Shown here one piece after another: positions 33,925 through 49,038 of a DNA stretch of 64,000 bases. The notes under the pieces were generated by a model. The model had not been told where the DNA came from. It ran no database searches and saw only the letters and a list, made by a program, of their open reading frames with translations. Source of the DNA: Phycisphaerales bacterium. Lineage in GTDB: Bacteria > Planctomycetota > Phycisphaerae > Phycisphaerales > UBA1924. The number at the start of each line of letters is the position of its first letter. Position 1 is the stretch's first letter. The stretch is taken from NCBI GenBank assembly GCA_026982335.1, contig JALSHH010000045.1:1-64000 (forward strand), given 5' to 3'. A program made the translations under genes and the position numbers.

Positions 33925-35346
33925 TTAGGACGAAGCACCTGTATTCACCGGACGATAAATTTCAATGATCAGTGTATCGTCTTCGGGAGGGAGCCCGCTG
34001 CGGTAGGCTGCAACTTCAGTGAGAATGCGTTCTGCCCACTGCCCTTGTCCAGCATTTTCAATGCCAGGCATCGCGGGAACTGCGAGAAGCCTACGAAGAC
34101 CGTCAATGTGAAGCATTTTGCCATCAATGCTTCGTGCTTCGATGGCACCGTCAGTGTAGACGATGAGTGAATCTCCAGGCATGAACTCCGTTTGAATCTG
34201 CCCGGCCTGAAAATCTTCTGCAGCACAAGCCCCTAGGACAAAGGCCGTCGGGTCGAGATCACGAAGCGAACCATCAACGCCTCGAATGAAGGCCGGTGGG
34301 TGTCCTCCCGATGCATATTCAATAATCCCACGATCGTGATCGACCCTCAAACACACCGCTGTGGCATAAATGGAGTGTTTGGCGAGCGTGAGGTGAACAT
34401 ATTTATTAAGTCTTTCGAGAAGCTCACCGGGTGAGATATCTGGATTTTCTGCGAAACAAATATCGATCTCGCCGTGAAGCCGGTTAACAGTAAGGGCAGC
34501 AGGAATGCCATGCCCGGTAACATCGATGATGATGACAGAAATATTTTCACCTTTACCATCAATTGGTTCAGCGACTTTGGTGTAGAGGTAATCCCCCCCG
34601 ATTTGTCGCATAGGTTCGTATTGATAGGCATATCGGATATTCCCGGTGACCCGCGGTGCTGGATAAAGCGCTTCGTGAACTTGTCGGGCATAGGCAAGCT
34701 CTTGGCGGAGCATCCCATAACGCTGAGAAAGAAACTTGTTGGTGGATTTCTGGATGCGTTGGGAATGCTTGATACCCGCAATAGCAATCGCAGGCAAGGA
34801 AAAGAGCATCAGAGCAATAGTGAGTAGAACCGAAACGATTGACCAGTGCCCTTCGACAACAGTATGAGCGAGAATACTTGCGCTGGCAATGACAAGAATA
34901 GGAATGAGGGCTTGACGAATTGTCCATGGGAAAAGGCAGCAGGCAATGAAGTGGGCAATGAGAAAAGAAATCATTGCGGAGGGGCCAATATCCATGACCC
35001 GAATGCCGATGCCCATGAGCCCGTCGAGGATGATGAGCCCCATCGAAATGTGAATGATCGATTTTGTGGAAACTCCCTTTCCAATGGCAACAAGCAAGGC
35101 GCCAAGGTAGATACCAAACCAGAGAAGCGAAGTGAGGATGAAGAATGCCCGCTGCCTTCCGTCGCTCAGTATGCTGAAGACATCAATGCCTTGGATGAGC
35201 ATGACGCCGGTAACGGCCAAGTTGATGGCCCCCAACGCCACCCAAATAGAAATAAACCAAATTAGGCGTTTACGCAAAAGATCGTTTGTTTCCTTGGTAA
35301 AGGAGCGCCGAAACTCGGTGGTTTCAAATGATGCGGTCGTCGTCAA
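33925..35346 (-). CDS. membrane SpoIIE-type (PP2C) phosphatase, copy 1
   Basis: A 473-residue protein. The start is placed at TTG 35346 because GGAG lies 8 bases upstream; a longer frame to 35412 would overlap the upstream gene's stop by 23 bases. About 200 residues form six transmembrane helices in pairs (e.g. FFILTSLLWFGIYLGALLVAIG). The C-terminal phosphatase domain has GGDYLYT, IIDVTGHGIPAALT, YASGGHPPAFI and IVYTDGAIEAR, which are the metal and catalytic motifs of SpoIIE/RsbU. It is probably a membrane-bound Ser/Thr phosphatase that acts on an anti-sigma factor antagonist or a similar partner. It follows a second copy directly, with a gap of about 44 bases. Confidence 0.88.
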   Translation of the reverse strand: MTTTASFETTEFRRSFTKETNDLLRKRLIWFISIWVALGAINLAVTGVMLIQGIDVFSILSDGRQRAFFILTSLLWFGIYLGALLVAIGKGVSTKSIIHISMGLIILDGLMGIGIRVMDIGPSAMISFLIAHFIACCLFPWTIRQALIPILVIASASILAHTVVEGHWSIVSVLLTIALMLFSLPAIAIAGIKHSQRIQKSTNKFLSQRYGMLRQELAYARQVHEALYPAPRVTGNIRYAYQYEPMRQIGGDYLYTKVAEPIDGKGENISVIIIDVTGHGIPAALTVNRLHGEIDICFAENPDISPGELLERLNKYVHLTLAKHSIYATAVCLRVDHDRGIIEYASGGHPPAFIRGVDGSLRDLDPTAFVLGACAAEDFQAGQIQTEFMPGDSLIVYTDGAIEARSIDGKMLHIDGLRRLLAVPAMPGIENAGQGQWAERILTEVAAYRSGLPPEDDTLIIEIYRPVNTGASS

Positions 35347-35389
35347 TTCATATACTCCAAAATTGCGTAATAAGGCGTCCAGCCAATAT

Positions 35390-36760
35390 TTATGCTCGGT
35401 AGAGTTCCACAATCAAGATATCATCTGATGCCAATCCGGCTCGTTTTTTTTGGACATCTGCCAAAATCTTCTCCGGCCAGCGTTGTGCATGATCTGCCCA
35501 ATCCCCTTCGAGCACATTGACAGCACCTGCGGTTGCGTAGAGCTCGCCCTGTTGCGTAACGGCCTCGGAAACCCCATCGGTATAGGCAATAAGAGCATCA
35601 CCAGGGTTGAATGGATGCTCTTCGATACCCGGTTTGAACGCCTCACCCATGCCAATGCCCAAAACAGGAGCAGTGGACTCAAAGCATTGGATTGATCCTC
35701 GGGCGCTACGGAGAATGGCAGCCGGATGCCCCGCATTGGCGATACGAATGACGCTATTGGCCGGATCGGCATTCATTGCAACAGCAGTAACAAGAACTGC
35801 TGAATCGGCAAGGGTTAAACAAACATATCGATCAAGCTTCGTAAGCAGCTTGGCAGGGTCAATGGTTGGGACTTCGCCTACGATGCGCATAAGCTCACCC
35901 TGAAGCCGATTAGCAGTCAGAGCGGCGGAAAGTCCATGCCCGGTGACATCGAAGAGCACAAGGGTCACGGGCGATTGGGCATCTCCTGGGCGTTCGATCG
36001 AAGCGAAGATCGAGTCGCCTCCAATTTGGCTCATGGGACGATAGATGTAAGTAAAGCGGATATCCCCTGAGGATTTGGGTTTGGGAAATCCACGCTCATG
36101 GATATTTTTGGCAGCCTGAACTTCTTCACGGACTTCATTGTACTTTGCTTGGAGAAAATGAAGTTTGAACTGATCTTGCAAGCGTGAGGATCGAAAGAAG
36201 GAAATCATGATCCCAGGAACAGTCACCGCCACATAGGCAAAGATGGAAGCGGGAACCGAAAACTCTTTGGCGTGATCTGTAAAGAACAAGCTTAAGACTG
36301 CACCGGCTATCCAGATAACGCTGAGCCCGATGGTTTGCCGTGGAGTCCATGGCAGAAGCAATGCTCCCAAGGTCAATCCAATGAGAACACCAATGATGGT
36401 GTCACCATCAGGGCTTGGGTCTTGATAGATGACCCATCGAACAATTGCAACAAGCCCTTCTGCCACGATGATGAGTAAGGAAATGCGAATGCAGCAGACC
36501 TTCGATGGGCTGCCGAGGTAAACCACCGCAGCCGCCACGAGATAGAATCCGGCCCAGAGGATGCCGACGACAAGAAAAGCGATGTCGAGCGAACCCACCC
36601 TCATCGACTGCATGACGATGACAACAACACCTAGGAGTGCGAGGAGCCCAAGAAACTGCGCGGTATTTCGACGGACCTCGGCTTCGTCAAGGCTTTTGAC
36701 AAGGTGGCTTGTATCAAGATCAAGCACAGCACCGATGAGTTGGCGGGTTTGTTTGTGCAC
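35390..36760 (-). CDS. membrane SpoIIE-type (PP2C) phosphatase, copy 2
   Basis: A 456-residue protein with the same plan as the copy downstream: about six transmembrane helices in residues 35-200 (e.g. IAFLVVGILWAGFYLVAAAV, LLIIVAEGLVAIVRWVIY, IFAYVAVTVPGIMISFF), a linker (KYNEVREEVQAAKNIHERGFP), then the phosphatase motifs GGDSIFA, LFDVTGHGLSAALTANRLQG, ANAGHPAAIL and IAYTDGVSEAV. The two copies differ in the N-terminal sequence, so they may sense different signals through their membrane parts. They likely form one operon. The partner anti-sigma or STAS protein is not in the window. Confidence 0.9.
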   Translation of the reverse strand: MHKQTRQLIGAVLDLDTSHLVKSLDEAEVRRNTAQFLGLLALLGVVVIVMQSMRVGSLDIAFLVVGILWAGFYLVAAAVVYLGSPSKVCCIRISLLIIVAEGLVAIVRWVIYQDPSPDGDTIIGVLIGLTLGALLLPWTPRQTIGLSVIWIAGAVLSLFFTDHAKEFSVPASIFAYVAVTVPGIMISFFRSSRLQDQFKLHFLQAKYNEVREEVQAAKNIHERGFPKPKSSGDIRFTYIYRPMSQIGGDSIFASIERPGDAQSPVTLVLFDVTGHGLSAALTANRLQGELMRIVGEVPTIDPAKLLTKLDRYVCLTLADSAVLVTAVAMNADPANSVIRIANAGHPAAILRSARGSIQCFESTAPVLGIGMGEAFKPGIEEHPFNPGDALIAYTDGVSEAVTQQGELYATAGAVNVLEGDWADHAQRWPEKILADVQKKRAGLASDDILIVELYRA

Positions 36761-37461: not shown

Positions 37462-39264
37462 GTGAGCCTGATGTTTGATTCAACCAGTGCCAAGGGTGAT
37501 CATGTCGTGGAGATCAAGATTCCTGAGGGAGTCGATCGGGGGATCGCACGGGTGTGGAAAGCACGCTCGGAGGAGCAAATTTCGGGCGAGTTGATCGACC
37601 GGGTGCTGATGGCGCGGGGGATCAAGCCCGATGAACAGGGGCAGACATTTTTAAATCCGTCACTCAATACAATGCACGATCCATCGGGGATTCCTGATCT
37701 AGACAAAGCTGCGATGCGAATGCTCGAAGCGGTCGAAAATGATGAACCGATCGTGACCTTTGGTGATTACGATGTCGATGGCGTGACGGCTTCGGCGATT
37801 CTGATCCACATGGTTCGAGCGATCAAACCCGATGCGAAGATTCGGTCCTACATCCCCCACCGTTTGGATGAAGGGTATGGGATCAACTCGGATGCGATTC
37901 GTAAGCTGATTGATGAAGGGGCGAAGCTGATCGTTTCGGTGGATTGTGGAATCACGGCGATCGAGCCTGCGATTGTTGCAAAGAAACTCGGTGTTGATTT
38001 GATTATTACGGATCATCACAATCCGCCTGAGTCGATGGATGACCTGCCTGATGCGTTTGCAGTGGTGCATCCGCGTCGCCCGGACTCGGAGTATCCGTTT
38101 GGGGAGTTGTGCGGCGCGGGGGTGGCGTACAAACTCGCGTGGCGGATGGCGACACTCGATGCGGGGGGTGAGAAGGTCTCGCCCGCGATGCGGATGGTGC
38201 TGGTGGATTTGCTGGGATTTGCAGCCTTGGGTTCGATCGCGGACATTGTGCCTTTGATTGATGAGAACCGGGTGATTGTGAAACATGGGCTCTCGCGAAT
38301 ACCGACGCTTCCCAACGAAGGATTGCAGGCATTGATTGTTGCGTCGGGGTTGGATTCGGAGAAAATTGATACCGAAGCGATCGGGTTTCGGCTTACCCCT
38401 CGGCTCAATGCGATCGGACGGCTCGGACATGCAGCTGATGCGTTGGAACTGATGACCGATGCGAAAGGGCCGCGAGCGGTGGAGCTTGCCGAGTCGTTGT
38501 CGCGGGTAAACGATGAGCGGAAGAAGCAGGAGTTGGCGATCGTGACGCAGGCGTGCGAGATGGCGATCGAAGCGGGGATGACAGGGGATGAATCGCGGGC
38601 GATTGTCTTGGCGCATGAGGATTGGCATCCGGGGATTGTGGGGATTGTGTGCTCGCGATTGGTGGATCGGTTTGCACGCCCGACGATTTTGATGCAGCGG
38701 ACTGACGAGGCGTGCAAGGGGTCTGGGCGGAGTATTGAGGGATTCAATCTCCATGCTGGGCTTGATGCGTGCGAACACCTGCTTGGGTCATATGGCGGGC
38801 ACGATATGGCTGCGGGGATGAAGTGCGATCCTGAGCAGTTCGATGCGTTTGCTCAGGCGTTTATTGGGTATGCCAATGCGAATCTGTCAGCAGATGATCT
38901 GGTGCATCGTGCCAAGTACGATTGTGTGGCGGATTTTTCAGAGTTGACCGTGCAAGCGATTCATCAACTCGATCGGATCGCACCCTTTGGGGCGGGCAAC
39001 GGGCGGGTTCGGTTGCGGATCAATGGGCTCAAGCTCAATGGGTTGCCAACGGTGATGGGCAAGACGGGGAACCATCTTTCGATGCGGGTTGGGCCACGGG
39101 ATCACAATGGGCCGATGTTGCGGATCGTGGCATGGAACTGGGCGGGGTATCTGGATCAGATCCCTGCAGGTGCACCCGTTGAGGTGATCGTTGAGCCAAA
39201 GGTTTCAAATTGGAATGGAAACACCCGCGTCGAGCCAGTGCTGGTCGATTTGCGGGTGGTGTAG
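37462..39264 (+). CDS. recJ: single-stranded-DNA-specific exonuclease RecJ
   Basis: RecJ degrades single-stranded DNA from the 5' end in recombination and mismatch repair. The 600-residue protein has the DHH-family motifs FGDYDVDGVTA, ADHH-type LIITDHHNPPES, GGHDMAAGMKCD (DHHA1 domain) and RLNAIGRLGHA. The C-terminal part forms an OB-fold-like domain. The start is GTG at 37462, with GAGGGAG upstream. The end is 25 bases from the convergent TPR lipoprotein gene. All the metal-binding residues I can place are present. Confidence 0.95.
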   Translation: MSLMFDSTSAKGDHVVEIKIPEGVDRGIARVWKARSEEQISGELIDRVLMARGIKPDEQGQTFLNPSLNTMHDPSGIPDLDKAAMRMLEAVENDEPIVTFGDYDVDGVTASAILIHMVRAIKPDAKIRSYIPHRLDEGYGINSDAIRKLIDEGAKLIVSVDCGITAIEPAIVAKKLGVDLIITDHHNPPESMDDLPDAFAVVHPRRPDSEYPFGELCGAGVAYKLAWRMATLDAGGEKVSPAMRMVLVDLLGFAALGSIADIVPLIDENRVIVKHGLSRIPTLPNEGLQALIVASGLDSEKIDTEAIGFRLTPRLNAIGRLGHAADALELMTDAKGPRAVELAESLSRVNDERKKQELAIVTQACEMAIEAGMTGDESRAIVLAHEDWHPGIVGIVCSRLVDRFARPTILMQRTDEACKGSGRSIEGFNLHAGLDACEHLLGSYGGHDMAAGMKCDPEQFDAFAQAFIGYANANLSADDLVHRAKYDCVADFSELTVQAIHQLDRIAPFGAGNGRVRLRINGLKLNGLPTVMGKTGNHLSMRVGPRDHNGPMLRIVAWNWAGYLDQIPAGAPVEVIVEPKVSNWNGNTRVEPVLVDLRVV

Positions 39265-39289: not shown

Positions 39290-40525
39290 CTATTCGGTCT
39301 CCACGGATGCGAATGTGCCCGCGTTAATCTGCTCAAGCATCTGGACATAGCGTGGATTGCCTGGCTCAAGCTTGACGGCATGTGCGACACTTGCAAAAGC
39401 TTCTTGGCGTCTGTCGAGATCGGAGAGGATCATGGCGCGGTAGGCGTATATGCCCGCATCGAGCGGGTTTCGTTCGATGGCTTTGTTGATTGAAGCAAGG
39501 GAAGAATCCAAGTCATCGGTTTGGCGGTGATACATTGCGTAGAGGAGGAAGCCGTCATGGGAGTCTGGAGAGAGGGAAATGACCCGCGAAGCGGCTTTGC
39601 GAACAGTGCGCATGTCGTTGATGACGAACGAGGCATTGGCCAACCCGATCCATGAATCCACATCGCTCTTACCTTCAGTCGTAGAAAGAAGCTTATGATA
39701 AATTGACCGAGCTTCAACGGGGCGTCCGGTATTGAGCAGGGCTTTGGCATGAAGAATCTGGAGATCTCGGCGATCGGTATTTTCCGATTTTTTGAGCAAG
39801 AGTGAGATGTTCTGCTCTGCTTTGGCAAATAGTCCTGCAAGCATCTGAGCATTGATCAGATCTTCAGCAATGCCTCCATCGTCTGGAGCAAGCAAACGAG
39901 CCTCATTAAAAAGTTTGACCGCTGTCTTAAAATCATGCTCAAGCAAAGCGATGTGTCCGAGCGATTGACGGATGCCGGCGTTGTTCTGAGACATCGGAAT
40001 CGAGTTGAGGAAGGCTTTGGCTTCATCAATTCGATCGAGATCGATGAGCATCTCGGCAGCCGCGACGGTGTAGGATGGGTTGTAGTCGTCGAACTCACTG
40101 GCCATCACGAAGTGGGTATAGGCATCTTCTGGGCGATTGAGGCGTTCGTAGACAATGGCGAGATAGTAATGGGCGTCTGGATCTTCAGGATCGAGTGTCG
40201 ATGCGGTTTGCAAGGATTTGAGTGCGTTGCCGATATCACCGAGCTCGATCTGGATTCGGCCCTTGAGAACATGAGATTTGACGACGGTATCGTTGATTGA
40301 CAACGAATAGTCAACTTTCTCCATTGCCTTTTCAAGATCCCCTGCAAGGAATGCCTGTCGAGCGAGTTCCCATTCTGTGCCGCTCTTGAGGAAGCTCATC
40401 CGTTCCTTGGCCAGCGACACACCTTGCCGGGTGTAGTTGCCTTGCCCTGAGCATCCGGAAAGAGCCGTCAGCAGGATGGTGGAAGTAATGAAAACAGACT
40501 TGGGCTTGGTGATGTGCATGTGCAT
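39290..40525 (-). CDS. TPR-repeat lipoprotein
   Basis: A 411-residue exported protein with lipobox ALSGC: a basic start MHMHITKPKS, hydrophobic VFITSTILLT, and Cys25 as the lipid site. The mature part is built of about nine tetratricopeptide-like repeats (e.g. DIGNALKSLQTASTLDPEDPD shown in parts, DIGNALKSLQ and TASTLDPEDPD). Such repeat lipoproteins often assemble outer-membrane complexes: PilF/PilW, for example, helps a secretin to multimerise. Its position directly downstream of the secretin gene (gap 91 bases) supports a pilotin-like role in that cluster, but this is inference. Confidence 0.88.
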   Translation of the reverse strand: MHMHITKPKSVFITSTILLTALSGCSGQGNYTRQGVSLAKERMSFLKSGTEWELARQAFLAGDLEKAMEKVDYSLSINDTVVKSHVLKGRIQIELGDIGNALKSLQTASTLDPEDPDAHYYLAIVYERLNRPEDAYTHFVMASEFDDYNPSYTVAAAEMLIDLDRIDEAKAFLNSIPMSQNNAGIRQSLGHIALLEHDFKTAVKLFNEARLLAPDDGGIAEDLINAQMLAGLFAKAEQNISLLLKKSENTDRRDLQILHAKALLNTGRPVEARSIYHKLLSTTEGKSDVDSWIGLANASFVINDMRTVRKAASRVISLSPDSHDGFLLYAMYHRQTDDLDSSLASINKAIERNPLDAGIYAYRAMILSDLDRRQEAFASVAHAVKLEPGNPRYVQMLEQINAGTFASVETE

Positions 40526-40616
40526 GCTCCTGAACCTTGGTGGAATCAGGTTTCACTTCGGCCCGATAGCCTTGCTTGGTCAGTGAAATCTAGAATCGCC
40601 GGTCAAAATCACTTAC

Positions 40617-43295
40617 TTATTCGGTATCGGTGGGCATCTCGGTGAAGGTGGCGACCGAGTCGTCCACAGGTTTGGTGCCTGCAACATAATCAAAGCTCAA
40701 AGGCCAATCCAAGCGAAGCGCCCCTCCCCTAGGAAGCGGGATGATGAGCTGCCCTGAGAATTTCTCTGCAGCGATCGAAGATGTCCCCGTCCGAGAATCA
40801 ATCGATTCAAATGCCGAGTCCGATTCGGTCAAGCTTTGGAGATCGTCGGCATCTGCAGATTGGTAACCCCAATCCGGATCAACTTCCGTAAAGTCAACGG
40901 CCGTTTCTTTGCCAGTAACGATTGATTTCATCTGATCAAATTCGGCCAATGGGTCTTGGTCTGCAAAGATATCTTCAACAGCCTGATCTTCAACAGCAAT
41001 TTCAACAAACTCGACGGGCTCGTCCAATTTCGCTGGTAAGGATGCCTCCTGAGCCATTACTGGGCTGGAGAGATCAACGGAATCCGCGTTGAATGGATCA
41101 AATGAATCCGGAGATTCGACTATTGAAAACTCATCTTCCTGAAGTGACGCATCAATTTCAAATGATGCATCAGAGAGCGAATCTGTCGGAACTTCAACAA
41201 AAGGCACAACATCAAGGGATGGGTCAGGCTGATAATCCTCGTCGGAGCTTGGATCAAACTCGTCGGGTTCATTCATTTGCGTCTCGGTGGCAAAAGTTGA
41301 GTCTTCTTCTTGTGGATTAACGAATGGGTTGACTGTATTTGGAGCCACGACGGAAGATGTTTTTCCGCCAAAGTGAAGCTGATTGTGAAGCATACCCTCG
41401 ATCAGACTTCGGCTTGGAAGTGTGCGGAACTCACCGGTAAGCTCGGTGCGCAATGCCCGAGCATCTGGTGACATTGGCATCAAGCGCAATGCACGGTCGA
41501 CCTTGGAGAATGCTTTCTCAATTTCACCCACATCGGCAAGCTGACGGGCATCGATAAGCAACTGACCAACGCGGCGTTCACGCGACCATGGAAGAAGTCC
41601 CTTACGCGCACCGTAACGGGCATGTTCGAGATACTGATTGCCCATATCTCCAATTTCGCCAAGAACGGTATCATTGACGATCGAAGGAGTGATAAGGAAA
41701 ATAATCTCGGACCGGCGAGTTTCGTCGTCATATCCCTTAAATGCATTTCCGACCAACGGCACATCACCCAGGACCGGAACTTGGCGTCTCGTGGAAGAGG
41801 TCGTCTCAGTAAAAAGGCCCCCAAGTACCACAGTTTGCCCGTCACGAACCATGACATTGGTGTTCATCTCAGTGGTGTCTTCATCAGGAATGGTCACGGT
41901 CGCCCCAGCATTATCAGATACTTGGCGAAGTGTAAAGCTCGATACCTGCGGACGAAGCTCAAGACGGATAAGCCCGTTCTTGGAAACGAATGGGCGGACT
42001 GAAAGCTGAGTACCAACATCTAGGAATTCCACAGACTGGGTTGTTGAAGTGTTGGTGGTTGTGGAGTTCAGGTACCCAACTCGTGTCCCCACAAGCACGC
42101 GTGCAGGCTGCCGGTTGAGTGTGAGGAGTTTGGGATTTGAGACGACAGTCACATCAGTGACTTCATCAAGGACTCTGAGGAAGACCCCGACATCGCCGTT
42201 GACAAAACCAGCTTTGAGTGACGCAGGACCAGAAGTATTACCGACAGTTGAACTCAGTCCTGCACCGTGTCCATTGGGTATGTCAACTGCTGTTCCATCA
42301 ACGGTTTCACCTTGGCCGTTAATAAGACCATCAACAACACTTAGTGGACCTCCCGTGCCAACAAAGTCTGTAAAGTCAAGGTTTTGAATGAGCGCAAAGT
42401 CCATCCCGAAGGCATTCGCCTCATTGAGTGTAGTCTGAAGGATGGTTGCCTCGACAAGGATTTGGGCAGGTTTGGTATCAAGTTCGGCAATGAGTGCTTC
42501 AATCTCATCAACATTTTCTTCAAAATCGTACACAACGATTGTTGCAGAGTTCGCATAATTATCCGCCCCTGCGGGTATACCATCGGTGATAGAGAATGCT
42601 TCGGTTTGTGCATTTGTGGTCAATGTTCCCGTTTCAGAAAGGAGCATCTTGGCAAATTCGGCCGCATCGGTGGCATTAAGGTAGTCAAGTGTGATGATGC
42701 GTGTAATAGGGTGGCGTGAGAGCGCTTCAAACTCCATGAGCTCTTCCGCAGTATAAACATAAATGAAATTTCCCTTTTCGATATATCCATACCCATTCAC
42801 ATGAAGGATGGCATCGAGTGCTTCGTAGAATGTTACGCCGTAAAGATCAGCAGTAACAGATGCCGAGACATTGTTGGAACTGATGATGTTGCGTTGTGAC
42901 TGAATCGAAAGAAGTTGAAGAATATTTCCGAGATCCTCATTGTTGACATGAAGATCAACAAGATCGTATTCAGAGACATCAACAGCACCGGTAAAATCAG
43001 AAAAATCATCCTCATCTTGTGGTGCTTGCTCTGGTTCCTGATCCTGATAAAATCCCGGATCGAATTCCGGATTGAACTCGTCTTCTAGGAATCCATCTTC
43101 GAACGCATCCCCCTGATCTTGGGCGTTTGCTTTTGCTTGGTTTTTGAGTGCTGCAAGGAGCCCAAATCCACCTGAATCCTGCGCACTGGCCGATCCGGCA
43201 ACCATGGAAAGCGCCAAGGCCGGCATAATTCCATGGCGGAGGCTTCGCGCGAGGAGATTGGATGTAAAGGTACGACTGGTGTCCTGATTGCTCAT
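40617..43295 (-). CDS. secretin (GspD/PilQ-like) with long acidic C-terminal extension
   Basis: An outer-membrane channel protein of type II secretion or type IV pili. The start at 43295 (MSNQDTSRTF) has GAGG upstream; a signal peptide with a hydrophobic stretch and ASA-QDSG cut lies near residue 40. An STN-type domain follows (LVDLHVNNEDLGNILQLL), then NolW-type repeats and the secretin domain with VVLGGLFTETTSSTRRQVP, ending around residue 552 with IFLITPSIVNDTV. The remaining 340 residues are not part of normal secretins: a TPR-like helix pair (GEIEKAFSKVDRALRLMP), then a long Asp/Glu/Ser-rich tail, and a final hydrophobic strand. Neighbours are pseudopilins and a TPR lipoprotein. Confidence 0.93.
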   Translation of the reverse strand: MSNQDTSRTFTSNLLARSLRHGIMPALALSMVAGSASAQDSGGFGLLAALKNQAKANAQDQGDAFEDGFLEDEFNPEFDPGFYQDQEPEQAPQDEDDFSDFTGAVDVSEYDLVDLHVNNEDLGNILQLLSIQSQRNIISSNNVSASVTADLYGVTFYEALDAILHVNGYGYIEKGNFIYVYTAEELMEFEALSRHPITRIITLDYLNATDAAEFAKMLLSETGTLTTNAQTEAFSITDGIPAGADNYANSATIVVYDFEENVDEIEALIAELDTKPAQILVEATILQTTLNEANAFGMDFALIQNLDFTDFVGTGGPLSVVDGLINGQGETVDGTAVDIPNGHGAGLSSTVGNTSGPASLKAGFVNGDVGVFLRVLDEVTDVTVVSNPKLLTLNRQPARVLVGTRVGYLNSTTTNTSTTQSVEFLDVGTQLSVRPFVSKNGLIRLELRPQVSSFTLRQVSDNAGATVTIPDEDTTEMNTNVMVRDGQTVVLGGLFTETTSSTRRQVPVLGDVPLVGNAFKGYDDETRRSEIIFLITPSIVNDTVLGEIGDMGNQYLEHARYGARKGLLPWSRERRVGQLLIDARQLADVGEIEKAFSKVDRALRLMPMSPDARALRTELTGEFRTLPSRSLIEGMLHNQLHFGGKTSSVVAPNTVNPFVNPQEEDSTFATETQMNEPDEFDPSSDEDYQPDPSLDVVPFVEVPTDSLSDASFEIDASLQEDEFSIVESPDSFDPFNADSVDLSSPVMAQEASLPAKLDEPVEFVEIAVEDQAVEDIFADQDPLAEFDQMKSIVTGKETAVDFTEVDPDWGYQSADADDLQSLTESDSAFESIDSRTGTSSIAAEKFSGQLIIPLPRGGALRLDWPLSFDYVAGTKPVDDSVATFTEMPTDTE

Positions 43296-43485
43296 CGGAT
43301 GTATCCTCAGCATTGCGGCCCAAAGCCTGCACATTGATTTGATCCCGGTTGTCCGGGGGTATTTCTGCAATTCGATCGTCATTTCTTACATGTGACTTTG
43401 CGTAGACCTTGTGCTTTCGGCAATCGTCTATCGTTATAGACCCACCCAGGGGGTCCGATAGCCAATTCTTATCAATGAAACCAAA

Positions 43486-43773
43486 CTATGGAACCGGCAA
43501 TTCATCACGCACAAAGTCTGATAACGCAGAGTCTTCTGGCCCAACATCATCATCCGCAATGGACTTCTGATCCTGTCCAGTCGACTGCCCCTCCAGCGTT
43601 TCTGTCTCGCGTGGATCGGCATAGGCACTTCTTGGTATATCGGTAACTAGGCGAAGTTTGGCCCAGATGAGCACCCCTGCAAGCATCCCAAGGCTTAGTA
43701 CAACCAAAATCCCCCGCGAACGATGGATGAAGAAAGATTTTTTTTGAGATTCTGGTACTGGATCGTATGACAT
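43486..43773 (-). CDS. small single-pass membrane protein of the secretion cluster
   Basis: A 95-residue protein with one transmembrane helix (ILVVLSLGMLAGVLIWAKL, residues 21-39) after a short charged N-terminus, and an acidic tail of about 50 residues. The start at 43773 has AAAGGATG upstream. It lies between the secretin and the GspH-like gene on the same strand. The size and topology resemble GspC- or PilP-like parts that join the inner membrane to the secretin, but no PDZ, HR or other domain is visible, so this is inference. Confidence 0.7.
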   Translation of the reverse strand: MSYDPVPESQKKSFFIHRSRGILVVLSLGMLAGVLIWAKLRLVTDIPRSAYADPRETETLEGQSTGQDQKSIADDDVGPEDSALSDFVRDELPVP

Positions 43774-43871
43774 GGCCCATCCTTTGCATCTGCATCGGGC
43801 GGGTGTCAGTTCCACTTGCATCAGTTTATTATGACCGCCAAACGAATGGGTATGCAAATGCTACAACCGCG

Positions 43872-44429
43872 CTAATCCAACCGGGTAACCGTAACCCGGC
43901 CGGTGAAGGCTGCAACATTAACTCTCCACCTACTCATCGGCCCTGCGAGAACAATTGCCCCCCCATCACTCAGGTTGCTCGTCCCCGGCGCGGAGACAGG
44001 CCCACCCATTTCATCAAATATGAGGGTGCCGTCTCCATCGAAGTTCGCAGACTCAATCACGGTCCCCCCATACCGCTCATCATTGAGGTCGATCCGATAT
44101 CGCTGATCAGGCCCCTTGATGTCATAGAGTGCATCGTCATCGGGATCAATGGAATTGCCGTTGACTTGGATAAGGGTATATTGATTGTTGTCAATATCAA
44201 AAACAATCGCCCGTTGCTCCTGGTATCCTAAAGCATCCATTTGAGCAAAGGTAATATCCGAAACAACCATGCGCACCGCAGACTGAATCCGCAGCACCCC
44301 TGCTTGGCTCAGCGATGGTGCGACCATTGCACCGGCAATGCCCAGAATCACAACCACAACCAACACCTCAACAAGGGTGTACCCACGAAGTATGGCCCAA
44401 GGGGTGATTCGATGATGTCTACTTCGCAT
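43872..44429 (-). CDS. GspH-like pseudopilin
   Basis: A 185-residue pseudopilin. The start at 44429 (MRSRHHRITP) is supported by GGAAGGAACGAG upstream. The prepilin leader is WAILRGYTLVEVLVVVVI: cleavage after Gly16 leaves Tyr17 at +1 and Glu21 at +5. The mature domain is strand-rich (RIQSAVRMVVSDITFAQMDA, YTLIQVNGNSIDPDDD), as expected for the minor pseudopilin GspH of type II secretion. Its own start is 48 bases downstream of a GspG-like gene. It is part of the same-strand run that ends in the secretin. Confidence 0.85.
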   Translation of the reverse strand: MRSRHHRITPWAILRGYTLVEVLVVVVILGIAGAMVAPSLSQAGVLRIQSAVRMVVSDITFAQMDALGYQEQRAIVFDIDNNQYTLIQVNGNSIDPDDDALYDIKGPDQRYRIDLNDERYGGTVIESANFDGDGTLIFDEMGGPVSAPGTSNLSDGGAIVLAGPMSRWRVNVAAFTGRVTVTRLD

Positions 44430-44477
44430 TGACTCGTTCCTTCCAACCCCCCACTGTACCTTCAAAATCATTCACTT

Positions 44478-44909
44478 TTATGGTCTTGGAAGTGGCTCAT
44501 CGTTCATATCGAATCCGCCTGCCCAAATTTCCCCAGTAATATCGTTATAAATCCATCCGTGAGTCGTCTGATATGCAGCGTCGGGTGTGGATGCGATAAT
44601 AATCTGCTGGTTGTTTGCTCCGCCAACATACGGATTGGTCGGTGCTTCTTTGAGGTACTCACCGGTATTGGCAATTAGGTCTCCCCAAGTACCGTTACCT
44701 GCAGTAACAGCAGGAAGTGCGTTTTCATTGCGTACTTGGAAGACTTCGACTGCTCGGCGAAGTTTTTGAAGCTCTGATTGAGTTGTCCCAATAGTTGCCT
44801 CTTCAACCGCCCCTATAAAGCTCGAGACGACGATTGCTGCGAGAATACCAAGAATAACCACAACGATGAGAATCTCAACAAGTGTGAATCCACTCCTTGC
44901 ATGCCGCAT
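44478..44909 (-). CDS. GspG-like pseudopilin, copy 1
   Basis: A 143-residue major pseudopilin-type protein. The start at 44909 (MRHARSGFTLVEIL) has AAGGAAA upstream. Prepilin peptidase would cut after Gly7, leaving Phe8 at +1 and Glu12 at +5. The C-terminal half has LKEAPTNPYVGG and HGWIYNDITGEIWAGG, which match GspG's ordered C-terminal region (EAP-NPY and GWxYN-TGEIW). It shares this plan with the next gene, suggesting a tandem duplication. The order along the transcript is GspG-like, GspG-like, GspH-like, small membrane protein, secretin, TPR lipoprotein. Confidence 0.88.
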   Translation of the reverse strand: MRHARSGFTLVEILIVVVILGILAAIVVSSFIGAVEEATIGTTQSELQKLRRAVEVFQVRNENALPAVTAGNGTWGDLIANTGEYLKEAPTNPYVGGANNQQIIIASTPDAAYQTTHGWIYNDITGEIWAGGFDMNDEPLPRP

Positions 44910-45014
44910 GACTGTATTTCCTTGCGCTTGGACTTGAAAATTTGCCACTATCCAAATTGCGCTGAGGGCTCCTTTCGAAGCCCACACGCGATATTCTCTT
45001 AATGTCGGATGAGA

Positions 45015-45476
45015 TTAGTACGATCCACCACTTGCACGAATTCTGCCCGTGTTGGGGTTGTAGAACCACCCTTCCGAACCATCACCAGCGTTGGCTTCTG
45101 CATCTGCAGCTGTCGCGTTTGCCGCTGCACTTGCAGTCACGGTGAATGCGTTGGCCGCAGGTGCGTATGGGTTCCGTGGTGCCTCTTTGATGTAATCCCC
45201 ATCAATCATGACGCTCCACCCGTTTGTCGAACCATCTGCCGGGTCTGCGTTAAGTTGCGCAACCGACGGATAAGACCCATTATTCTGAGCAGCATAGAGT
45301 TCGAGCTGATTCTCGAGTGTCGAAGTTTGGGTTTCCACATTCCCTTGGCGTGCCTCGTTGGCAGCATTGGTAAACTGTGGGACGACGATCGCAGCGAGAA
45401 TCCCGAGGATCACGACCACGATCAAAATTTCGACAAGGGTGAAGCCCTTTGCCATTGTGTTTCGCATTGAATGCAT
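45015..45476 (-). CDS. GspG-like pseudopilin, copy 2
   Basis: A 153-residue protein. The start at 45476 (MHSMRNTMAKGFTLVEIL) has AAGGAG upstream. Cleavage after Gly11 gives Phe12 at +1 and Glu16 at +5. It carries YIKEAPRNPYAPAAN and GWFYNPNTGRIRASGG, the same C-terminal plan as the downstream copy. The middle is Ala/Asn-rich (TASAAANATAADAEANAG), likely a flexible loop. This is the first gene of the cluster; it has its own gap of about 390 bases upstream, where its promoter should lie. Confidence 0.88.
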   Translation of the reverse strand: MHSMRNTMAKGFTLVEILIVVVILGILAAIVVPQFTNAANEARQGNVETQTSTLENQLELYAAQNNGSYPSVAQLNADPADGSTNGWSVMIDGDYIKEAPRNPYAPAANAFTVTASAAANATAADAEANAGDGSEGWFYNPNTGRIRASGGSY

Positions 45477-45868
45477 TTGTTTGTCTCCTTGAATACGACT
45501 CATGAGTGACACGCCCTTGCCAGGCGGCATTTACCTGTCATCCCTCGAAACAGGCCGTTCCTCCGTAGCCCGTTCACTTGAAACTTCCCACAGGCGGTAA
45601 CGCACCGCACTTGGCAACCCTAAGCATGACAAATGGATCATCGTCATGCCCATCGAATCGAATCAGTCTTCATGCCTTTGGGGCTGCCAAACCAAACCCA
45701 ATGGATCAGTGTGCCCGATTCATGCCGGTTGTGCAGGCAAACCACAGCATCATCGAACACTCTCGGACGCACAAAGCAATGAATCTTCGCCCGATAGTTC
45801 CAAAAAAACGAACCGAGAAAAGGTTCGTTTTGAGCAAATAGGAAAGAATTGCTGCGATTATCAGTGGG
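45477..45868. other. intergenic gap before the pseudopilin cluster
   Basis: About 390 bases without a supported gene, between the start of the first GspG-like gene and the stop of the HEAT-repeat gene (both minus strand). It contains the terminator at 45802-45832 and must hold the cluster's promoter. An 87-residue plus-strand frame (45578-45841) has no ribosome binding site or family features. Confidence 0.6.
45802..45832 (-). terminator. intrinsic terminator after the HEAT-repeat gene
   Basis: AAACGAACC / GGTTCGTTT stem (9 base pairs) with a 7-base loop, followed on the minus strand by seven T. It lies 36 bases after the stop at 45869, so the HEAT gene and the pilin cluster are separate transcripts. 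Confidence 0.85.
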
Positions 45869-48100
45869 TTATCGTCCGGAAACTGCTGTTCCGATTTTAC
45901 CTTCACGATGAAGAATCAAAGGAACCAATGTCGAGTTTGTTACTTCCAAAGCACCCATTGTTGCGACAGCAACTGTTGCCAACTCATCATGAGGATCTTG
46001 AGCAAGCTCAATCAAACGACGGATTTGCCGATTATTGATCTGATTACCAAAGCGCTTTCCAGAATCGGCAACCATTGCCAAGAGCTCCATCTGAATTTCA
46101 CCGGAAGATTCGAGCGCCCTGTCCATAATGGCTTGTTGCGCTTTTGGCTGAGGCATGTAAGAAATAATCTCGGCAACATCAAGCAAAGTAAATCCCTCAA
46201 CCTGATCGAGCACATCAATCAGAATCGAGGAGGCGTCAGAAACATTAAGAACCTGATTGTTCGAAATCGCAAGGTTGCGAAGTACCTCGATCGAACGATA
46301 CGAGTATTCATCTGCTTCGTCATCGCTGATAGGCCCGCCCGAAGCAACTTCAAGCAGGGTCGAAACCGATTCGTCGAACGCACTACTCGAGATTGCACTT
46401 CGGCGCACCGAAACGCTCTGGTCACGGTGATACTGACGCGTCATGGGGATGAAATCATCAGGCCCCATAAGTGAAAGAACTGGAGCGACTGCAAGTTTAT
46501 TGTCAGCCCGGGCAGATTCAATCGACCGCAAGGTCTCGTCAAATCCCAACGAGGTCACGATAAGATCAATCGTTGGCGTTTCAGCAATCGCTGCATTGAG
46601 ATCGGACAATCCATTCTCTGCTGGTGGAAGTACTGCGAAACCAAGTTGCTCAAGCAAAGCACGGTACTGGTCATAAGCTTCACGATCACGCCCGGTTAGA
46701 ATGATGGCATGAATCGACGAGGCGTCCATCACAGCACTGGCAAGCAGTGGGATGACCCGCTCGGCCCCACGAAAAGGTTCACTGGGTTGAGCTTTGCCCA
46801 AAGCCAGAGCAGCTTCAAACTGCACCCGGCGATTCTGATAGGTCAACGACTCAAGAAGGGGATAACGATCCCCAATTGGCTCACCCCAAAGGGCACGCGG
46901 CCCCGCAGTTTGAGCCAAAGCGTCGATTGCCAAGCGAACAAGTGGTGTATCGCGCGTATCGAGCCCTCGGCGAAGCACAAGTTGATCAATCTCAGGTCCC
47001 ACCGCAATGCCGTAATACTCGGCATCTCTGCGATCCGATGAATACACCGGGTTTTCGTAGTTCTCCGGAGTATCGAGCTCCCGTGAATAGTTCGCAGCGA
47101 CCCACAGAGCAAGCGTTTCATTTTCGGTCGGGTCCAGAGCCAACGCCCTTTCAGCCATCCGCATGGACATCGCCTCATGAAACACAGAAGTTCGGATCGG
47201 AACCATAACAAGCCCAAGCCCAGGATCGAAGTTCCAGACAAGCTGATAGTCTTCGTTGGGAAAACTGGTTAGCTCAGCAGGTTGAGCATAATAGGAATCG
47301 GCAAGCAGGGCATACATATCGGCAACGACTTTGCCCGGATCCCCGCCCAAGCGAGAAATCGCCCGCCCACAAGCCTGACGAACCGCATCATTGTCGGTGG
47401 ACTGATACATATCAATCAAAACAGGCAAACTGGTGCGATAGGGAATCAGCCCGAGAACCTCGGCAATGGCTTCTTGGCGAGCAGCGTCAAGCCCAGGCAT
47501 TGCAGTCGTAAGGGGAATGATTGCTTGGCGTCCCATATCGACAAGCAACCGCTGCACCTGCGCTTTGAGCGCCAAGTCGGACTGCTGGAGGTAGGCATCG
47601 AGCAGCTGAGGCATCGCATATTCGCCTGCAACGATCAAACGCTCACGGGCCAACGAACGAGCTCGCAATCCTTGAGTGAGCAACTCGATATTACGGGAAA
47701 TCTCATCGGGATTACGAGCACGAGCGAGCTTACCATCACGAAAGGCACCGTCAAGTGCTGCTGCAATGGGTTCGAGCACAGGCACACGCATCCCGGCAGC
47801 AATGGCCTCTTCAAAACGCTGCTGTTCGCGAGATCGTTCCACGAGATCAACAAAATCTTCTGGCGCCATGCCCACATCAAGAATCTGGGTACCCAAATCT
47901 GCTGCAATATCAAAGCGTGCAATCTTGACAAAATGGATGAAATCCCGGAGGAGTTCGAGTTCTTCTTCGTGATCAGTACTTGGCTGGGCTACGGAGGCGT
48001 AGGCCTGCGGGATGGGGATCAGCACGGACGCTGAGCCTGCAATAAGCATGATCGAGAAGGACAGATTGGCGATGTTGCGGGTCACTCTGCGCACATTCAT
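45869..48100 (-). CDS. secreted HEAT-repeat protein
   Basis: A 743-residue exported protein with a signal peptide (basic MNVRRVTRN, hydrophobic stretch, cut after YAS near residue 36). GGAG precedes the ATG. The mature part is almost all helical with HEAT-like repeats, such as ALKAQVQRLLVDMGRQAIIP, AVRQACGRAISRLGGDPGK and VEGFTLLDVAEIISYMP. The middle has a GRD-type block (ILTGRDREAYDQYRALLEQL) that could be a Rossmann-like fold, but no catalytic motif is clear. HEAT proteins serve as scaffolds. Its location upstream of the pilin/secretin cluster suggests an envelope role. Confidence 0.8.
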   Translation of the reverse strand: MNVRRVTRNIANLSFSIMLIAGSASVLIPIPQAYASVAQPSTDHEEELELLRDFIHFVKIARFDIAADLGTQILDVGMAPEDFVDLVERSREQQRFEEAIAAGMRVPVLEPIAAALDGAFRDGKLARARNPDEISRNIELLTQGLRARSLARERLIVAGEYAMPQLLDAYLQQSDLALKAQVQRLLVDMGRQAIIPLTTAMPGLDAARQEAIAEVLGLIPYRTSLPVLIDMYQSTDNDAVRQACGRAISRLGGDPGKVVADMYALLADSYYAQPAELTSFPNEDYQLVWNFDPGLGLVMVPIRTSVFHEAMSMRMAERALALDPTENETLALWVAANYSRELDTPENYENPVYSSDRRDAEYYGIAVGPEIDQLVLRRGLDTRDTPLVRLAIDALAQTAGPRALWGEPIGDRYPLLESLTYQNRRVQFEAALALGKAQPSEPFRGAERVIPLLASAVMDASSIHAIILTGRDREAYDQYRALLEQLGFAVLPPAENGLSDLNAAIAETPTIDLIVTSLGFDETLRSIESARADNKLAVAPVLSLMGPDDFIPMTRQYHRDQSVSVRRSAISSSAFDESVSTLLEVASGGPISDDEADEYSYRSIEVLRNLAISNNQVLNVSDASSILIDVLDQVEGFTLLDVAEIISYMPQPKAQQAIMDRALESSGEIQMELLAMVADSGKRFGNQINNRQIRRLIELAQDPHDELATVAVATMGALEVTNSTLVPLILHREGKIGTAVSGR

Positions 48101-48459
48101 CTCCTGCGTGCAAATATTGATGGACGAAGCGTCGAAGAGACCAAATCCTCGTCCCGGGGGATCATCATATACGACCGCCGGGGCGATGTGTTGCCCTTGG
48201 CGTACGAAAGAATGACAACTGTATCGGACTCAAGGCATAGGTGTCAATCGGACAAAGGCGATAGCTCCAATAACCATGAGATAATTGCCCTATCTTGCCA
48301 GATCGAGGACCCAATCGGGTCCGGATATGGCAAAGTACCCGAAAGTACCACCAATTGGGCCCAAGCGTCAAGCCAAGAGGACAAGGCGACGATGAGAAGA
48401 AAGACACGGCGCATGACGGCTGCGACGGTCCGCTTCAAAGATGTACCCGAGGTGAGATG
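48101..48459. other. divergent regulatory gap
   Basis: About 360 bases between the divergent HEAT gene and the HTH-receiver gene. No gene is supported; promoters of both must lie here. A minus-strand frame at 48244-48438 looks signal-peptide-like but has weak start signals and overlaps the leader of the HTH gene. Confidence 0.5.
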
Positions 48460-49038
48460 ATGCCCATTGAAAAAGATGTATTGACGACCGGCGAAGTCGC
48501 CAAAATTTGTAATGTCGCTCCCAGAACCGTCTCCAAATGGTTCGATTCAGGACAGCTCAAGGGATATCGCATCCCAGGATCCAAAGATCGGCGAATCCCG
48601 GTGACCGAACTCTATCGGTTCATGAAAGCCCACCATATCCCCATGGACGGGATCGCCAGCGGCAATACCCGCGTACTCATCATCGACAGTGACCAGGAAG
48701 TCTCCGATGTCCTCGAACGGGTACTCGCTGAGCAGACCAACTACGAGGTTTCAGCTGCCAACTCGGCATTCGCTGCCGGACTCGAATGTGAACGATTCCG
48801 TCCACATGTCGTGCTCATTGATGTCCATATCACTGAGAGCGAGCCGCACAAGATCGCCCAACTGGTCCGTTCAAGCGAAGCGATGCAGATGACCAAGCTC
48901 ATTGCGATGTCCGGCAAACTGACCGATGGGCAGGCTCAGGGATTGCGAAGCGCGGGATTTGACTCGTTCCTCAAGAAGCCCTTCCAAGTGCGGATGGTTG
49001 TTGAAGCCATCGAGCAGGCGACGAATATCGCGGCCTGA
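48460..49038 (+). CDS. regulator with N-terminal excisionase/MerR-like HTH and C-terminal receiver
   Basis: A 192-residue protein. GAGGTGAG precedes the start; the ATG at 48457 also lies in frame. Residues 7-52 form a helix-turn-helix of the BldC/excisionase type (LTTGEVAKICNVAPRTVSKW, then KGYRIPGSKDRRIPV with the wing). Residues 70-185 form a receiver: Asp76/Asp78 acidic pocket, Asp121 in VVLIDVHIT as phosphoacceptor, Ser151 in AMSGK, Lys173 in FLKKPF. The order, DNA-binding domain first, is the reverse of most response regulators. It is monocistronic, with a strong terminator 40 bases after the stop. The target genes are unknown. Confidence 0.88.
   Translation: MPIEKDVLTTGEVAKICNVAPRTVSKWFDSGQLKGYRIPGSKDRRIPVTELYRFMKAHHIPMDGIASGNTRVLIIDSDQEVSDVLERVLAEQTNYEVSAANSAFAAGLECERFRPHVVLIDVHITESEPHKIAQLVRSSEAMQMTKLIAMSGKLTDGQAQGLRSAGFDSFLKKPFQVRMVVEAIEQATNIAA

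Follow-up and report, generated by a model that had tools for sequence, protein, structure and literature searches.

A secretin and pseudopilin cluster of a Phycisphaerales bacterium as the probable outer-membrane half of a former type IV pilus-like machine

Related systems and the layout of the cluster

It is customary to regard a type IV filament machine as a unit in which a single motor goes with a single connector and a single secretin. XphA/XqhA of Pseudomonas aeruginosa is an orphan GspC-GspD pair whose secretin is encoded away from the motor used, with the connector kept. A passage of PMC6668835 describes it as very common, across type IV filaments, the T3SS and filamentous phages, that one system uses the secretin of another. 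In the type IVa pilus the pilotin is the TPR protein PilF (extract of PMC10499894). The HR-type domain of PilP and GspC binds the N0 domain of the secretin in the systems studied (extracts of PMC3169554 and PMC4471445). No paper was found on Phycisphaer with secretin and pilus, on the combination of type IV filament, secretin, Planctomycetes and type II secretion, or on 'orphan secretin' with type II secretion. The parts described here and the principle of secretin co-option are already known. In contrast to co-option elsewhere, here the secretin's own motor and the HR-type domain of the connector have disappeared together, repeatedly, and this combined loss of motor and secretin clasp appears to be new.

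The window is a stretch of 64,000 nucleotides (C45:1-64000) from a Phycisphaerales genome of 2.56 Mb, 56 contigs and 91.9% completeness. Contigs of this genome are numbered with C, compared genomes with G, loci with L and families with f. A preliminary description had listed two GspG-like and one GspH-like pseudopilins, a one-helix membrane protein, a secretin and a TPR lipoprotein, all in one direction. All six ORFs were found in place on the minus strand, with N_methyl matches in all three pilins and with Secretin and TPR matches in Pfam. The gaps from the first pilin (G1) to the TPR gene are 27, 6, 14, 103 and 91 bases, giving an operon-like run.

G1 (45015-45530) is a GspG-like major pseudopilin with the class III signal KGFTLVEI. 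N_methyl and T2SSG were over the Pfam cut-off, T2SSG at 22.5 bits (cut-off 21) and in G1 only of the three window pilins, and the NCBIfam GspG model gave 65.7 (cut-off 88.85). Among 19 pilin sequences the G1 profile matched the GspG pseudopilus 5wda. The second pilin with a class III signal, pil2 (44478-44987), was over the cut-off for N_methyl and below it for the GspG model. The GspH-like minor pilin (43872-44471) also carries a class III signal, was over the cut-off for N_methyl, below it for the GspH model, and has relatives in intact clusters. Because the NCBIfam GspG and GspH scores were below cut-off, 'GspG/GspH-like' is a fair name and 'GspG/GspH' is not established.

The secretin (40617-43382) is PilQ/GspD-like, with 149 bits for Pfam Secretin. 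It was below the cut-offs of both NCBIfam models, PilQ at 216 bits (cut-off 284) and GspD at 214 (cut-off 351). The best solved-structure relatives of its profile were PilQ proteins. Residues ~570-921 form a C-terminal extension that contains a TPR-like stretch and an acidic region of low complexity and has a conserved end, and secretin length varied widely among relatives. An AlphaFold model of the secretin was discarded (pLDDT 39.9). The nearest named relative, 85% identical, was L066 (Phycisphaerales bacterium WFPK01000010.1).

The TPR lipoprotein (39290-40525) is a candidate pilotin with a TPR match in Pfam and the lipobox LSGC, whose Cys25 was invariant in 13/13 aligned sequences. It scored 61.6 bits with the PilW model (cut-off 154). 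Its AlphaFold model had a pLDDT of 87.7, and in a fold look-up with this model PilF 2ho1 was one among many TPR matches and so not diagnostic.

On one side the run ends at recJ (37462-39264, plus strand), a convergent gene outside the machine that gene-order comparison gave as the boundary of split clusters. The first gene of the conserved run encodes a HEAT-repeat protein (45869-48100, minus strand; HEAT_2 2.3e-11). In split clusters, and in some of the intact clusters (L083, L085 and L087 among them), it precedes the pilin genes. Divergent from it is a gene with HTH_17 and response-regulator domains (48295-49038, plus strand; Pfam and gene order). This gene was conserved upstream in the window's lineage, in most named loci and several stretches of family f1.

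The absence of GspE and GspF from the cluster was borne out. PF00437 and PF00482 had no match in C45:1-64000, and the nearest E and F genes are at C45:97.5 and 96.2 kb. Intact relatives share with the type IVa pilus PilM, PilN, PilO, a connector of HR/PilP type, a PilQ-like secretin, a TPR lipoprotein and PilB- and PilC-type proteins. In contrast, the window cluster is without PilM, N, O, B, C and T, and its connector is without the HR-type domain. There is no room and no ORF for PilM, PilN or PilO between the GspH-like gene and the secretin. With the type II secretion system the window shares GspG- and GspH-like pseudopilins and a GspD-like secretin, with model scores below cut-offs except T2SSG for G1. 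GspE, GspF and any GspL/M-like gene are missing from the cluster, and the GspC-like anchor has no HR-type domain. The cluster has no complete GspI-J-K tip, with only three pilins whose best T2SS models are GspG and GspH. As in XphA/XqhA the secretin is encoded away from a motor; in the window, however, the secretin has beside it pilins, the TPR lipoprotein and only an amputated connector.

Intact and split clusters in relatives

The secretin was searched in 150 class genomes, and 132 matched at E 1e-20. Surroundings were examined in 40 genome stretches and 13 named loci with homology-weighted gene calling. The intact order starts with pilins, a GspH-like gene, PilM, PilN, PilO, a connector of ~170-235 aa, the secretin and the TPR gene. 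After these come a PAS-HisKA kinase, a response regulator, an HD-domain protein, a STAS gene, PilB/GspE and PilC/GspF. An ATPase gene followed the secretin in 24/40 stretches, with 3/8 in f1 (G092, G109 and G086), 10/14 elsewhere in the order and 11/18 elsewhere in the class. The intact form is present in the same family, order and class as the window. In intact order-level stretches a GspF-type gene lay directly after the ATPase. A PilT-type gene was seen after the ATPase in the class-level intact clusters L113, L116, L106 and L111, and the ancestral form may therefore have been a pilus that retracts.

In the split form PilMNO and everything from the kinase on are missing. This form was found in the window, in 12/13 named loci and, among the 40 stretches, in L079-L081, L084, L086 and L090 (genomes G003, G013, G030, G044, G115 and G139). 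The remaining stretches were at contig edges or otherwise incomplete. Losses were not uniform: L220 and L228 (f4) keep PilM- or PilO-like genes, and L218 (f3) keeps the kinase, response-regulator and HD genes. Gene order points strongly to the window cluster being the outer-membrane and filament half of a formerly complete machine, like a type IV pilus or T2SS, that has very probably lost PilMNO and the genes after TPR. Intact and reduced forms stand side by side in one family, and such clusters should not be called incomplete systems from a single genome.

The draft state of the genome gives another way to account for the missing genes, as an assembly gap or binning loss. A genome in 56 contigs at 91.9% completeness leaves some room for this, but recJ directly follows the split order in the window, in 12/13 named loci and in G030. 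The last is a one-contig genome of 99% completeness, in which none of ten ATPases belonged to the lost clade described below. A gap of this kind is very improbable.

The amputated connector

In intact clusters the secretin gene is immediately preceded by the connector gene. Its product combines a membrane helix with a linker and a domain at the C-terminus, whose sequence roughly follows INGxxxxxGxxxxGFxLxEI...V.LE..GV.V.L. This domain had no Pfam match over cut-off. A profile was built from 26 full-length connectors. It matched the connector of motor module C in the window's own genome (E 1.1e-6), 17/25 C loci at E 0.05 or better, missing the other 8, and the PilP-position protein in 8/8 loci of module D. 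By position and profile the domain is of HR/PilP type. Nothing was matched in 27 split loci, the window included (window ORFs of at least 40 aa, E 0.05). The helix and the segment after it were nearly invariant among relatives (LIWAKLRLVTDIPRSAYA). The 'one-helix protein' (43486-43773) is identified from its sequence as a remnant of a PilP/GspC-like connector, in which the HR-type domain was lost and the membrane block kept. Its ORF opens at 43857 (43486-43857), and 43773 is the likely start by comparison with L066. The conserved block after the helix (window 43486-43857) had an A-x-A-like end in many full and amputated connectors, resembling a putative signal peptidase site.

For 31 genomes of the order the connector was classed as full or amputated, by inspection and by profile. 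The scoring left out G037, G080 and G242, where the contig starts at the secretin, G224, where no connector ORF was found, a second copy in G023, and L076 of the 13 named loci. The cluster ATPase was scored as present at E 1e-150 and at least 48% identity. Genomes with an amputated connector were without the cluster ATPase in 15/15 cases. A full connector was accompanied by the ATPase in 13/16, and the other three (G131, G187, G201) were at contig edges, G201 with an ATPase fragment there. On the secretin tree (quick search, SH-aLRT only) amputation required six changes, and well-supported branches make four of these unavoidable. Amputation and ATPase loss agreed in 4/4 independent pairs, too few for significance. 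Joint loss of motor and clasp occurred more than once, and what persisted were the secretin, the candidate pilotin, the pilins and the membrane anchor of the connector. Two questions that can be tested are whether several motors can share a single secretin and what role a PilP/GspC anchor has without its HR-type domain.

Compared to L066, pN/pS was 0.08 for the TPR lipoprotein, 0.12 for the secretin, 0.25 for the connector, 0.13 for the GspH-like pilin, 0.17 for pil2, 0.08 for G1 and 0.08 for the HEAT-repeat protein, with 0.20 for the recJ control. By this ratio the remaining cluster genes are under purifying selection between close relatives. Against nine more distant loci the connector gave 0.44-0.63, with synonymous differences near saturation, and therefore appears loosely constrained outside the membrane block. 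The class III signal of G1 was invariant.

Motors elsewhere in the genome and the possible lenders

In the window's own genome PF00437 gave 12 matches, 11 over cut-off. PF00482 gave 10 half-matches, equal to 5 GspF proteins. Four secretins were found, the window's included, with others on C35, C40 and C47. There was one prepilin peptidase match, on C40 (A24_N_bact 108 bits), and 39 prepilin-signal matches, 38 over cut-off. Module A (C45:91-100 kb), on the same contig and strand as the window cluster, has E, F, four pilins and PilMNO-position proteins. Module B (C39) has E-T-E-F and pilins. Module C (C40:42.5-53.0 kb) has a kinase, STAS, a PilB/GspE-like ATPase, GspF, PilM, N, O, an HR-type connector at C40:50.0-50.7 kb and pilins, and no secretin. 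Module D (C56) comprises PilM, N, O, a P-position protein at C56:97.1-97.8 kb and E (PilB), and is paired with module H (C21), which holds PilT, F (PilC) and pilins. Further motor parts were single genes outside the modules. No secretin was found in the stretches around 25 C, 8 D, 5 A and 10 B loci. The only linked secretin-ATPase pair is on C35, a separate system with its secretin in another clade. The second C40 secretin is ORF L027:7430-10192, and near it L027:12477-15437 encodes a subtilase with a P-domain and a weak dockerin match. The preliminary description had named a complete conventional T2SS operon with its own secretin as the refuting case; none was found, the A-D stretches being without a secretin and the C35 secretin belonging to another clade.

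An ATPase tree was made from 98 PilB/GspE-type rows (quick search, SH-aLRT only). The 24 intact-cluster ATPases formed one clade (SH-aLRT 100). This clade held 0/7 rows from the own genome, 0/10 from G030, 0/9 from G044, 0/8 from G115 and 0/4 from G139. All ten ATPase matches of G030 were in the tree, as were 4/6 from G139; a PilT-like ninth from G115 was left out. G003 and G013 had no rows, and the absence of the cluster ATPase in G003, G013, G115 and G139 rests on the co-occurrence search. ATPases of module C (6 rows) and module D (8 rows) formed separate clades, with D sister to the lost clade. As no own ATPase fell in the intact-cluster clade, relocation of the original motor was rejected and the motor was probably lost rather than moved. 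The preliminary description had offered two options, parts elsewhere in the genome or a reduced system drawing on another machine's motor. Motor parts and a prepilin peptidase are indeed present elsewhere, but the cluster's own motor was lost and not moved, which makes borrowing from a candidate lender the better-supported option.

With the secretin's clasp lost from the connector, the outer-membrane gate is probably served by a motor from another part of the genome, and it is likely that an unlinked motor drives the window cluster. Module C is the likeliest lender, with about an even chance. Its gene set resembles the lost half, with kinase, STAS, ATPase, GspF, PilM and PilN by Pfam/NCBIfam, the connector by HR profile, and PilO in the own C by position only. 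Response-regulator and HD genes were not found by BLAST in the own C stretch; they were nearby in several relatives. The C ATPase and the lost cluster ATPase are in separate clades and not orthologous. Under the full explanation, in which a complete machine lost motor and clasp and now uses an unlinked motor, most likely C, the TPR lipoprotein would act as pilotin, bringing the secretin to its place in the outer membrane. The prepilin peptidase on C40 would mature the window pilins, the unlinked motor would power assembly, and the HR-type domain of the C connector would clasp the window secretin in place of the amputated connector. This explanation as a whole is about as likely to be true as not.

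Module C was present in 70/151 order genomes, all 70 with the window's secretin type, a weak co-occurrence since 146/151 order genomes have that type. The 146 comprised 27 genomes with both C and the cluster ATPase, 65 with the cluster ATPase only, 43 with C only and 11 with neither. The cluster ATPase was next to the secretin in 22 of the 27 with both. Three of the 11 with neither were contig-edge cases, and G172, also of the 11, is on one contig. In f1, C was found in 0/10 genomes with the cluster ATPase and 38/40 without it (Fisher 6.4e-9), which may reflect few events. When phylogeny was counted, five pairs gave means of 0.6 the same way, 1.7 the opposite way and 2.7 with no difference. 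The association was strong in raw f1 counts and gone over independent pairs. These pairs, four for amputation and five for C, lie on supported branches and are too few for significance either way. No C ortholog was found in 5/15 amputated genomes (G172, G199, G165, G246, G180), a re-search at a lax cut-off included, so C is not the lender everywhere. All 7 genomes of f21 have C and the window's secretin type, within 10 kb of each other in G085, G097 and G102 and on different contigs in the other four. The f21 secretins nest inside the family of the window's secretin on the secretin tree. The second C40 secretin was disfavored as the partner of C, being found in 16/70 C-bearing genomes. Module A was disfavored as lender, since G030, a genome in one contig, has ten ATPases and none of them is in the A clade.

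Modules D and H, a T4aP-like set, could be the lender in place of C, with the window secretin and TPR lipoprotein as their PilQ-pilotin pair. The stretches around D had an HR-type connector and no secretin in 8/8 cases, D was present in all five split genomes whose ATPases were examined (own, G030, G044, G115, G139), D and H form one cluster in G103, and a secretin profile closest to PilQ among solved structures fits such a pairing. However, D also occurs beside intact clusters (G092, G103, G121), its ATPase clade is only sister to the lost clade, and no stretch examined links D to the window's secretin type. A D/H motor is possible though unlikely. A broader reading takes the secretin, TPR lipoprotein and few pilins as a shared outer-membrane port in Phycisphaerales into which several secretin-less motor modules plug. 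These modules would be C, D/H and perhaps A and B, with C and D each docking by the HR-type connector that it encodes. A port served in this way would no longer need its original motor and connector clasp, so that both were lost repeatedly, and the membrane block of the amputated connector may be kept for a new task, for example marking a docking site. Such a port is rather doubtful.

The cluster could also have no filament motor, the secretin and pilins having another envelope role or forming a decaying set. G172, G180, G199 and G246 keep the secretin, TPR lipoprotein and pilins with neither the cluster ATPase nor C, but each has five or six other PilB/GspE-type ATPase matches. Low pN/pS for seven genes compared to the closest relative, an invariant class III signal in G1 and a nearly invariant membrane block also speak against it, and this reading is quite unlikely. 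An unlinked motor, with C as the likeliest candidate, is preferred.

Other features were seen in the window. A lone pilin-signal protein of 303 aa, which belongs to the 39 prepilin-signal matches of the genome, is encoded at 277-1188, with no machine genes seen beside it. Nine window ORFs scanned had no match to dockerin families. Two tandem membrane proteins are encoded at 33925-36760 on the minus strand, the first with a SpoIIE phosphatase domain (114 bits) and the second resembling it by eye. In known systems SpoIIE phosphatases have STAS proteins as substrates, and a STAS gene is present in module C.
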